This document shows positions 29,236-36,773 of a DNA stretch of 59,717 nucleotides, piece after piece. Positions within the stretch are counted from its first letter, which is position 1. Every line of letters begins with the position of its first letter. Under the pieces are notes generated by a model, which was not told the origin of the DNA, did no database searches, and saw nothing but the letters and a program-made list of their open reading frames with translations. The stretch comes from Terriglobia bacterium. GTDB lineage: Bacteria; Acidobacteriota; Terriglobia; Bryobacterales; Bryobacteraceae. The stretch covers positions 1 through 59,717 of the forward strand of contig PSRJ01000206.1 of assembly GCA_003175985.1 (NCBI GenBank). Reading direction: 5' to 3'. The translations under genes were made by a program, and so were the position numbers.

Positions 29236-30546
29236 GTGCTCAGCCAGAAACTGCGTGAGGGTGGGGTTGTAGGCGCGGGCGGCGCGGGTTTCCCGACCTA
29301 TGTCAAGGCCGAAGCGCGCGCCGAGTTTGTGATCGCCAATGGCGCTGAATGCGAGCCGCTCATCCATAAAGACGCCGAACTGATGAAGCACTTCGCTCCG
29401 GAGATTCTGTCGGGCATGCAGTTGATGATGGAGGCGACGGACGCGAAAACGGGCAAGTTCGGCGTGAAAACGAAAAACGCCGAATCGATCGAAGCCATCA
29501 AGCGCCACCTGGATGGCCGCGCGATTGACCTGGTCACGCTGGGTGACTATTACCCCTCCGGCGACGAATACGAGCTGGTTTACTCGGCGACCGGCCGCCT
29601 CATTCCCCCGGCCGGCATTCCGCTCCAGGTGGGCTGCGTCGTAAATAACGTGGAGACGCTATACAACGTTGCGCTCGCGGAGCGAGACATTCCGGTAACA
29701 GAAAAATTTCTCTCCGTATGCGGCGCCGTAAAAAAGCCTCAGAGCTTTTGGGCACCCGTCGGTATCGGTTTCCGCGATCTCATTGCCGCTGCGGGAGGCG
29801 CTACGGCCAGCGATTACGGCATCTTCGTGAGCGGCATCATGATGGGGACGCTTACCTTCGATCCTGAAGATGTAGTGACGAAGACTACCGGCGGTCTTAT
29901 CCTGCTGCCTCGCGATCACTATCTCATGTCGCGCCGCACGCGCTCGCAACAGGAAATGGACCATATCGGAAAATCCGCGTGCGATCAGTGCAGCTATTGC
30001 ACGGAGTTTTGTCCCCGCTATCTTCTCGGCTACGAGGTGCAGCCGCACAAGGTGATGCGCAGTCTCGGGTTCACCAGCACCGGCGCCGATGTGTGGAATC
30101 AATGGTCGGAGTTATGCTGCGCTTGCGGGCTCTGCACGCTGTACGCGTGCCCGGAAGATCTGTATCCCAAGGAGGCGTGCGACCAGGGCAAGCACGCGCA
30201 GCGCGCCGCCGGGTTGAAATTCGTGCAGCAGCGTCCGGTCGAGGTCCACCCGATGAAGGAATACCGCCGCGTTCCATTAGCGCAGTTGCGGAGGCGCTTG
30301 CAGATTGAAGAGTACGAGCGCGAGACCCCGTTTTCGGAGGTGCGCTGGCGGCCTGCCGCGGTCCGCATTAAGATGCGGCAGCACGCGGGGCAGGCGGCGA
30401 CTCCCACCGTGAAAGAAGGCGAGAGGCTGAAAAAGGGGCAACTGGTGGGCCGTGTGCCGGACTCCCAACTGGGCGCGCATGTTCATGCGTCCATCAACGG
30501 CACGGCGCGAAAGGTTACGGCCGAGTATGTCGAAATTGCGAGCTAA
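29236..30546 (+). CDS. pduS: PduS-like SLBB/4Fe-4S flavoprotein (RnfC-type, microcompartment redox)
   Basis: 436 residues from a GTG. It has an N-terminal NADH/FMN Rnf-type domain (GGVVGAGGAGFPTYVKAEAR, NGAECEPLIHKDAEL, VVNNVETLYNVALAERDIPV), an SLBB domain (LSVCGAVKKPQSFWAPVGIG) and two 4Fe-4S clusters: C249-x2-C-x2-C-x3-C259 and C294-x2-C-x2-C-x4-C305. The C-terminus carries a biotinyl/lipoyl-like fold. This is the layout of PduS, the cobalamin reductase/electron donor of propanediol microcompartments, and the next gene is a PduT-type shell protein. A TATCCT (29222-29227) ends 8 nt before the GTG. No other microcompartment gene is near, so the electron acceptor is unknown. Confidence 0.85.
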   Translation: MLSQKLREGGVVGAGGAGFPTYVKAEARAEFVIANGAECEPLIHKDAELMKHFAPEILSGMQLMMEATDAKTGKFGVKTKNAESIEAIKRHLDGRAIDLVTLGDYYPSGDEYELVYSATGRLIPPAGIPLQVGCVVNNVETLYNVALAERDIPVTEKFLSVCGAVKKPQSFWAPVGIGFRDLIAAAGGATASDYGIFVSGIMMGTLTFDPEDVVTKTTGGLILLPRDHYLMSRRTRSQQEMDHIGKSACDQCSYCTEFCPRYLLGYEVQPHKVMRSLGFTSTGADVWNQWSELCCACGLCTLYACPEDLYPKEACDQGKHAQRAAGLKFVQQRPVEVHPMKEYRRVPLAQLRRRLQIEEYERETPFSEVRWRPAAVRIKMRQHAGQAATPTVKEGERLKKGQLVGRVPDSQLGAHVHASINGTARKVTAEYVEIAS

Positions 30547-30549
30547 GCC

Positions 30550-31101
30550 ATGACAAAGAATTCCATCGGTCTCATCGAGCTGACCAGCATCGCTGCGGGC
30601 TTTCAAGTGACGGACGCCATGCTCAAGGCCGCCGATGTTCAGTTGGTTCTCTCCCGCTCCATCTGCTCGGGAAAGTACATGGTGATGATGCGCGGCGACG
30701 TGGCAGCCGTCGAGGCGAGCGTCGCAGCCGGTATGCGCGCCGGCCATTTTTCCGTAATCGATTCCTTTGTGATTCCTAATCTCCACACGTCGGTGTTTCC
30801 GGCTCTGAGCGCCTCCACCAAAGTGGAAGCGCTGGAAGCCCTGGGGATCATCGAGTCTTTTTCGGTCGCATCTCTGATTGAGGGCGCCGATGCCGCCGTG
30901 AAGGCTGCGCAAATTCAACTGATCGAAATCCGGCTCGCCATGGCGCTCGGCGGCAAAGCCTTCGTAACCCTTACCGGCAGCGTCGCCGCTGTCGGAAGCG
31001 CGGTCGAGGCGGGCGCGCAAGTAGTGGGCGCCAAAGGCATGCTGGTGAACAAAGTGGTGATCCCCAACCCGCGGCCGGAACTGCTCACGGAGATGATATA
31101 G
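30550..31101 (+). CDS. pduT: PduT-like tandem BMC-domain shell protein (BMC-T)
   Basis: 183 residues with two bacterial-microcompartment domains: residues about 4-90 (SIGLIELTSIAAGFQVTDAM, RSICSGKYMVMMRGDVAAVE) and about 95-180 (ALGIIESFSVASLIEGADAA, GGKAFVTLTGSVAAVGSAVE). The Cys at position 39 in SICSGKY aligns with the Fe-S ligand at the trimer pore of PduT, so an iron-sulfur cluster in the pore is expected. It starts 3 nt after the PduS-like gene. Known PduS-PduT partners shuttle electrons across the shell. No hexameric or pentameric shell protein, aldehyde dehydrogenase or signature enzyme is present in the window. Confidence 0.9.
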   Translation: MTKNSIGLIELTSIAAGFQVTDAMLKAADVQLVLSRSICSGKYMVMMRGDVAAVEASVAAGMRAGHFSVIDSFVIPNLHTSVFPALSASTKVEALEALGIIESFSVASLIEGADAAVKAAQIQLIEIRLAMALGGKAFVTLTGSVAAVGSAVEAGAQVVGAKGMLVNKVVIPNPRPELLTEMI

Positions 31102-35055: not shown

Positions 35056-35742
35056 TCACGCCCCGGCGAGTTCTTCGAGGACGCGCTCCACCTCACCTGC
35101 AGGATCGAGCGCACGCGTGATCTGGCGGCCCATGACGACGTAGTCGGCTCCGTCGCGGATAGCCTCGGCAGGAGTCGCCACCCGCTTTTGATCGCCTTTG
35201 GCGCTGCCCGCGGAACGTACTCCGGGTGTCACAATCAGCAGATCGGGTCCGGCAAGACTGCGCACGCGGGCGGCATCCAGGGGTGACGCAACCACACCGT
35301 TCATGCCGCTGGCCAGCGCCTTGCGCACACGCAGATCCACCAGGTCGGAAACTTCACAGGGGTATCCGAGATCGCGAATGTCGTCGCGATCGAAACTGGT
35401 CAGCACGGTGACAGCGAGCAGTTTGAGATTTGACGCGCCGCGGGCTTCCGCGGCGGCTTCCATCACCGTGTTGCTGCCATGCACGGTGAGAAACCGGGCT
35501 CCCGAGGGAACTACCCGACACACGGCGCGGCGGACTGTTTCCGGGATGTCGTAGAACTTCAGATCGAGGAAAACGTCCTTGCCTTGATCGCGTAACCTGC
35601 GGACAAACGCCATTCCGGCGGACGCATAAAGCTCCATACCGACTTTGTAGAAGTTCACGCGGTTGCCGAGCCGCGCCACGAGCGCTTCGGCTTCCGAGGC
35701 CGATTCGAAATCCAGAGCGACGATGATGGGATTGGGCGTCAT
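35056..35742 (-). CDS. pyrF: Orotidine 5'-phosphate decarboxylase
   Basis: 228 residues, the short bacterial class. Catalytic residues are all present: Asp11 (VALDFESA), Lys33 (FYKVGMELY) and the D60-x-K62-x2-D65 set in FLDLKFYDIPETVRR, plus VTPGVRSAGSAKGDQKR at the phosphate site. It makes UMP from OMP in the last step of pyrimidine synthesis. Its ATG overlaps the stop of selD (ATGA), so both are made from one transcript, an odd pairing that may just reflect shared growth-linked expression. Confidence 0.95.
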   Translation of the reverse strand: MTPNPIIVALDFESASEAEALVARLGNRVNFYKVGMELYASAGMAFVRRLRDQGKDVFLDLKFYDIPETVRRAVCRVVPSGARFLTVHGSNTVMEAAAEARGASNLKLLAVTVLTSFDRDDIRDLGYPCEVSDLVDLRVRKALASGMNGVVASPLDAARVRSLAGPDLLIVTPGVRSAGSAKGDQKRVATPAEAIRDGADYVVMGRQITRALDPAGEVERVLEELAGA

Positions 35743-36773
35743 AGTAGTCGAATGGGTTTGGGTCCGCGGGGCAACACGCGGCCGATCCGGTAGGCCTCCC
35801 CGTAGACATTTTCGAGCGCCGTAGCATCGGACTCAGGGAGAGTGATGAGCAGCCCCCCGGATGTCTGCGGATCATACAGCAGATCCTCGACGGGCCGCGG
35901 GATTTCCCGAGCCGCATCGACAACACATTCCGCAAAGTCGCGGTTGTTTTTTAGCCCGCCAGGAATCGCTCCGCGCTCTGCATACTCCAGGGCGCCCGGA
36001 AGAAAACGCACTCGATCCGCGGCGATCTCCAAAGTGACTCCACTGGCAAGAGCCATTTCCCGCGCGTGCCCGATCAGGCCGAAGCCGGTGATATCCGTAC
36101 AGCCATGCACATCGAAACGGAGCATTTCCTCGCACGCACGCCGGTTCAGCATAAGCATGGAACGAATGGCCTCGGCAACGTGTTCCTCGTCGGCCCACTC
36201 GCGTTTGAGCGCAGTGCTGATCACACCCGTGCCCAAACGTTTGGTAAACAGGATCGCATCTCCGGCGCGCGCCGACGAATTGGTTTTGATACGGCCGGGG
36301 TGTATCGTTCCCGTGACGGCATAGCCGAATTTGATTTCGTCATCGGCGATACTATGGCCGCCAATGATGGAACAACCGGCTTCATGCATCTTTTCCGCGC
36401 CACCTTTCAAAATCTGCTCGAGATCGGGCAAGTCGCCTTTGGCGGGATAGGCGAGGATCGAGAGGGCCGAGATGGGGCGCCCGCCCATCGCATAGATATC
36501 GCTCAGGGCATTGGCCGCCGCAATCGCGCCGAAGGTACACGGATCATCGACGATGGGCGTAAAGAAATCGACGGTCTGCACCAGAGCGAGCTCCGGCGTC
36601 AGCTTGTACACGCCGGCATCGTCGGCCGTGTCAAACCCGACCAGCACATTCTCATCCGCCCAGCGCGGCACAGTGGCCAGAACCTGGTCCAAAACCTTTG
36701 GACTCAGCTTCGACGCTCAACCCGCGGCCTTCACGTGAGCTGTGAGCTTTCGCGATAGAGTACCGTCTTTCAT
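35739..36773 (-). CDS. selD: Selenide, water dikinase, itself a selenoprotein (in-frame UGA = Sec19)
   Basis: 345 codons from ATG at 36773. Codon 19 is TGA (36717-36719) inside KLTAHVKAAG-U-ASKLSPK. This is the catalytic Cys17 position of E. coli SelD (GAG-C-GCKISP), with the essential Lys three residues on conserved. A bacterial SECIS hairpin follows the TGA (see 36684-36707). The rest is a normal SelD: VGFDTADDAGVYKL, TVDFFTPIVDDPCTFG, DIYAMGGRPISALSIL, GGHSIADDEIKFGYAVTG, VTDITGFGLIGHA-like block. Reading only from the next start (TTG at 36692) would give a 317-residue protein lacking the active site. It makes selenophosphate for Sec/selenouridine synthesis, so the organism must decode UGA as Sec. 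It shares an operon with pyrF. Confidence 0.9.
36684..36707 (-). promoter_or_regulatory. Bacterial SECIS element in selD mRNA
   Basis: Directly after the UGA codon the mRNA reads 13 nt of coding sequence and then a stem GUCCAAA / UUUGGAC (7 exact pairs) with a GGU loop. A further CUG/CAG 3-bp stem continues below a single bulged A. The apical loop begins 20 nt after the UGA and has G in its first two positions, as described for bacterial SECIS elements bound by SelB. Confidence 0.8.

Follow-up and report, generated by a model that had tools for sequence, protein, structure and literature searches.

A soil acidobacterium's selD with a UGA codon in place of the catalytic cysteine: a predicted selenoprotein

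Results

We conclude with high confidence that the selD gene described here encodes a SelD protein whose UGA codon, at the position of the catalytic cysteine, is predicted to specify selenocysteine (Sec) with the help of a putative bSECIS hairpin downstream. The gene lies in the window analysed here, a 59,717-nucleotide stretch corresponding to contig C151 of the draft genome (G000; 405 contigs, 92% complete) of a soil acidobacterium. On the minus strand, the full frame (35739..36773) runs from an ATG at 36773-36771 through a TGA at 36719-36717 to a stop at 35741-35739, and with TGA read as U it gives 344 residues, with U19 in the context TAHVKAAG-U-ASKLSPK. When C is put for U, the extended protein matches the SelD equivalog TIGR00476 at 369.8 bits (cut-off 125) from residue 9 to residue 316, that is, on both sides of the UGA. 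In an alignment with E. coli SelD (3u0o), made with the same substitution, the predicted Sec19 faces Cys17 and K22 faces Lys20, Cys17 and Lys20 being catalytic in that enzyme. A sequence-only reading of this DNA had traced the frame upstream through the TGA to this ATG and equated the surrounding residues with the cysteine-containing active site of SelD; we reproduced the coordinates and the alignment.

The same reading had warned that routine gene finding would lose the active site. The mechanical ORF list indeed contains a 317-aa ORF starting at a TTG (36690..36692, minus strand), which drops the first 27 SelD residues and with them the active site and all 18 codons 5′ of the UGA (36720..36773, minus strand). 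Routine gene calling would thus likely truncate this selD. The next gene on the same strand (35056..35742), which is pyrF-like (OMP decarboxylase), begins within the selD stop, the two sharing four bases (ATGA, 35739-35742). Among the 30 loci L001-L030, our own counted, 16 have a tblastn match to this gene directly after selD. Elsewhere in the window (29236-31101) there are ORFs that may encode a shell protein of a bacterial microcompartment and an electron-transfer protein resembling PduS. ARAGORN found no tRNA in the window and Rfam gave no match there at gathering score. By SelD, the nearest named records are metagenome bins from Bryobacterales and other Acidobacteriota.

The codons that precede the UGA behave as coding sequence. 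We compared 42 of the 46 UGA-type genes described below with our own gene as the reference row, L002, L070 and L073 being left out. Over the last ten codons before the UGA, differences at codon positions 1, 2 and 3 number 27, 29 and 233, and there are 212 synonymous against 32 nonsynonymous codon differences. This stretch is under purifying selection, and the position bias together with the synonymous excess means that translation very probably passes the UGA. No comparable bias is seen in the preceding eight codons (223, 241 and 253 differences at the three positions) or in the 18 that lie 5′ of the ATG (556, 562 and 540), and the first eight SelD residues are therefore not visibly constrained. 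The ATG itself is aligned in three of the four congeners, G004 being the exception. A lack of conservation upstream of the UGA in related species had been named beforehand as an observation that would count against the reading; what the relatives display is purifying selection over these ten codons.

To place the UGA among its relatives, we searched 81 genomes ranging from the same genus out to the same class, our own genome counted, and found SelD over cut-off in 71. Counted by hand, 45 of these have one internal TGA; 8 have a stand-alone gene and 16 an open frame of ~750-830 aa, in neither case interrupted by a stop, and 2 have C-terminal fragments. One genome, G067, has a second, partial SelD copy with a TGA. 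This order-mate combines a long-frame SelD without a stop (C633) with a partial UGA SelD (L073, on C100). The comparison covered 63 SelD genes, namely 54 stand-alone genes (own included) and 9 fusions, with 7 of the 16 fusion SelD genomes and the 2 C-terminal fragments left out. Aligning Sec- and Cys-type SelD had been suggested as a check, and it places UGA (46 genes) or a Cys codon, TGC or TGT (17 genes), at the same column in 63/63. The narrow motif pattern admitted only U or C at this site, and a wider pattern also gave G-U or G-C in 63/63. Within the 49 genomes of our organism's own family (own included), SelD is of the UGA type in 35 and of the Cys type in 7, and 7 have no SelD over cut-off.

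The predicted bSECIS hairpin (36684..36707, minus strand) is based on a recoding test, pairing counts, folding and published bSECIS constraints. Its outer stem of 3 bp (36705-36707 with 36684-36686, CUG/CAG, followed by a bulged A) begins after a 9-nt spacer from the UGA. The inner stem of 7 bp (36697-36703 with 36687-36693) closes a GGU loop at 36694-36696 on the same strand, the core being GUCCAAA-GGU-UUUGGAC with a 3-nt loop. Both stems and the loop had been proposed from the sequence and were recovered here; the 13 nt given for the distance from the UGA applies to the 5′ strand of the inner stem. All 10 pairs form in our gene. The 40 nt after the UGA have a minimum free energy (MFE) of -15.7 kcal/mol (z -2.8), and 4 of 200 shuffles fold as well. 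The review PMC13188914 gives bSECIS constraints of a 3-9 nt loop, an upper stem of 4-16 bp, a G in the first two loop positions, 16-37 nt from UGA to loop and an MFE of at most -7.5 kcal/mol. The selD hairpin lies within these limits, with its 3-nt GGU loop, 7-bp stem, 20 nt to the loop and MFE of -15.7. With up to 3 mismatches allowed, the window holds a single copy of the UGA-plus-hairpin pattern and 0/100 shuffles have one, which is a weak test because the pattern was derived from the site itself; better tests against chance are the codon-position bias upstream and the recoding of UGA genes, for which the Cys genes serve as control.

In the recoding test, genes were randomly recoded with synonymous codons, the protein being kept. 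The 46 UGA genes form a mean of 6.28 of the 7 core pairs against 3.17 expected from recoding, with at least 6 pairs in 42 of them; for the 17 Cys genes the mean is 3.82 against 3.07 expected, and a single gene has at least 6. Recoding p values of 0.05 or below were obtained by pairs for 41/46 UGA genes versus 1/17 Cys genes, and by folding energy for 41/46 versus 3/17, counts that are not independent events because the rows are related. The five UGA genes that fail by pairs are L002, L015, L069, L070 and L073. Across the 46-row alignment, 83.5% of cells are paired in the ten-pair structure, and 57.0% or 55.9% when it is slid by one. Cells changed on both sides number 12, equalled by 0/500 shuffles, but sliding the structure by -1 yields 15, more than the structure itself. 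Covariation is weaker by other counts, pairs changed on both sides being equalled in 31/500 shuffles and further pair types in 61/500. Pairing is frequently lost in the outer three pairs and at the top pair (27, 34, 34 and 26 of 46 rows paired), and RNAalifold on its own finds 4 pairs only. Taken together, these comparisons support a predicted hairpin whose conservation goes with the UGA genes and mostly not with the Cys genes.

The sequence-only reading also implied that selA, selB and selC should be present elsewhere in the genome; selB and selC were found, the latter by joining contig ends, while selA was not found in the 92%-complete draft. SelB matches its model at 366.6 bits (cut-off 242.25) over positions 1-578 of 581, in a frame that is open and without stops. 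A search with the congener selC region located selC split between the end of C174 and the start of C185, which share an exact 51-nt overlap; once they are joined, ARAGORN calls a tRNA-SeC(tca) with all arms and an encoded CCA end. Among the 45 genomes with a UGA SelD, 38 have a tRNA-Sec match of at least 58.8 bits, including the congener G002; no match at that score was obtained in G000 (where the gene is split), G004, G010, G014, G021, G029 or G042. The best single tRNA-Sec match in our genome, on C268 (58.5 bits), was ruled out as selC, its anticodon being UAU.

This tRNA-Sec-like gene (L031:1501-1586, equivalent to G000:C268:7828-7913; RF01852, 58.5 bits) is called a tRNA-Ile by ARAGORN. 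It resembles the allo-tRNAs described in PMC7609411, and the DNA upstream of it is like a putative XRE/ImmA-type regulator-protease gene.

SelD is probably not the sole selenoprotein of the genome, given two FdhA-like frames that also contain a UGA, in each where Sec would probably stand. One, on C359 (L179, near 2963), has its UGA in NRT-U-HAPSVAGL and may be incomplete or broken because a TAA stands at the start of the match. A second, with ENQARV-U-HGPTVSSLG, is split at contig ends and forms an unbroken frame only when C330 and C384 (L178 and L177) are joined across an 11-nt overlap. The congener G002 has a similar FdhA-like gene on one contig (C279), with UGA in ENQARI-U-HSSTVPSLG.

For SelA, neither of the family models PF03841 and TIGR00474 gave a match in our 405-contig draft, and a congener SelA protein used as query at E up to 1 returned a best hit of E 0.047 and 13.6 bits. 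SelA was likewise not found in the congeners G002 (98% complete) and G004; it is present in two of the four congeners, and all five genomes of the genus have a UGA-type SelD. Across the 81 genomes, SelA is over cut-off in 40 of the 45 with a UGA SelD. In the other five, G010 has SelA in two pieces below cut-off, and G000, G002, G004 and G021 have none over it. Of these last four, three belong to one genus, a tighter grouping than random gaps would lead us to expect. Two further proteins were sought in the five genus genomes: SepSecS, as a substitute for SelA, was found in 0/5 (control matches in 4/14 genomes), as was MnmH, another selenophosphate user (control matches in 7/14, over cut-off in 1). 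The neighbours of selA in G001 and G003, an EF-P-like and an E1-like gene, lie mid-contig on two different contigs in our draft, and for this reason synteny neither shows nor excludes a gap. We infer that selA most likely lies in a missing contig, since contig ends in this draft split selC, and probably an fdhA as well, so that gaps do occur at such loci. Absence from a complete genome had been named in advance as evidence against Sec decoding, and with only a draft at hand the missing SelA match is not such an absence.

SelA and SelD do not co-occur tidily in the wider set either: 5 of the 10 genomes without SelD over cut-off have SelA. These five (G070, which is listed as 100% complete, G007, G013, G015 and G025) have SelA over cut-off and tRNA-Sec matches of 69-81 bits.

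Exchange between Sec and Cys at the active site was followed on trees. The best 63-row SelD tree has 9 Sec/Cys changes, of which 3 are forced by well-supported branches, with the bootstrap not settled; the best 51-row tree, built without L054, L070, L073 and the 9 fusions, has 6. A scan of all columns in the 51 rows drew attention to residue 17, two residues before the active site (codon at 36723-36725, Ala in our gene), where Gly occurs in 6/7 Cys forms and Ala in 44/44 Sec forms. The named set of 80 loci, partly shared with the first set, has the motif in 78 (64 UGA and 14 Cys; none in L108 and L132), and Gly occurs at this position in 7/14 Cys forms and 0/64 Sec forms. Against a coupling, Gly17 is found in the UGA row L073, and the residue is Ala, Lys or Arg in the 9 fusions. 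The AU test did not reject a single Cys clade (p 0.207; for the six Gly rows, p 0.391) and independent Sec/Cys pairs on well-supported branches number only 2, for which reasons we do not claim convergence of Ala to Gly. The coupling is a lead only, as it emerged from an all-column scan and the events may not be independent.

Discussion

By the bacterial route as outlined in PMC1794560, SerRS would charge tRNA-Sec(UCA); SelA, with selenophosphate from SelD, would then turn the Ser-tRNA into Sec-tRNA, which SelB, bound to the hairpin, would bring to the UGA. With Sec made from its own selenophosphate, SelD would need its product in order to be made. It would probably also supply one or more FdhA-like proteins of this genome that have a UGA at the corresponding motif. 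Sec insertion at this codon, the enzymatic activity of the resulting SelD and the existence of a selA on DNA missing from the assembly are all inferred.

Other readings of the UGA deserve consideration. Were it a real stop, selD would be truncated or start at TTG 36692 and the product would be a non-Sec or SelD-like protein, as the 317-aa ORF in the list and the failure to find SelA in the assembly might suggest. We regard this as highly improbable in view of the strong purifying selection on the ten codons upstream, an active-site column restricted to UGA or Cys in all 63 genes and a hairpin that is kept in the UGA genes. The chance that a near-cognate or suppressor tRNA reads the UGA as Trp or some residue other than Sec is close to nil: the tRNA-Sec-like gene with the UAU anticodon does show that unusual tRNA genes exist in this genome, but that anticodon cannot read UGA, a UCA tRNA-Sec and SelB are present, and SelD genes alternate UGA with Cys codons only.

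The selA data bear on two further proposals. With SelA not found in three of the five genus genomes and no SepSecS or MnmH match in any of them, Sec decoding might be in the course of being lost from the genus, selA having gone and the UGA-type selD being a recent relic. There is a slim chance of this; an open SelB frame, a joined tRNA-Sec that folds with all arms and a hairpin with all 10 pairs all argue against it, as does the state of the draft, with its 405 contigs, 92% completeness and breaks at such loci. The same three genomes, which have a UGA SelD and the hairpin and no recognisable SelA or SepSecS, are the basis for the alternative idea that the genus makes Sec-tRNA without SelA, an enzyme other than recognisable SelA or SepSecS converting Ser to Sec. 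This, too, we consider improbable. A Sec-containing SelD, with a selA that probably lies outside the assembled contigs, is the explanation that we favour.

The corrected annotation retains an active site that the TTG start would lose. Most of the genomes searched in this acidobacterial family (35/49) have a SelD of the UGA type, and the occurrence of UGA and Cys forms within one family provides a natural experiment on the replacement of Sec and the fate of the RNA hairpin.

Our search found no paper devoted to SelD of Acidobacteria, Acidobacteriota or Solibacter, the subscription literature being mostly outside its reach. PMC5029168 maps selenium use, and PMC12013277 gives 3 known selenoprotein genes for one Acidobacteriota genome. 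Sec-containing SelD has long been described: PMC1794560 counted 38 in a 2006 survey and reports Sec-to-Cys swaps in SelD; it also notes that some selenoprotein homologues keep remnants of a SECIS-like structure behind their Cys codons. According to PMC4561486, Sec is present in 19% of the SelD genes of reference prokaryotes and its position never varies; SelD fusions have Cys, with one exception, and fusions with an N-terminal NADH-dehydrogenase-like part are described.

Our gene resembles these known Sec-containing SelD genes in its UGA at the catalytic position, its bSECIS-like hairpin and the presence of selB and tRNA-Sec in the genome, and differs in the details of its lineage and in that SelA was not found in this draft. 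The stem GUCCAAA-GGU-UUUGGAC is common to many of its relatives. The alignment with the Cys-type SelD of E. coli (3u0o) spans most of the protein and places the active site in the same surroundings, with Lys20 facing K22, but our gene has a predicted Sec where that protein has Cys, and the Cys-type relatives mostly lack a conserved hairpin. With the fusion SelD proteins of its order-mates (~750-830 aa) it shares the SelD domain, the site in the fusions being G-C-[AG]-S-K (9/16 examined); unlike our gene, these have Cys, a longer frame, no UGA and a separate branch in the tree. This kind of selenoprotein is thus long known, and the SelD described here is a well-supported further member.
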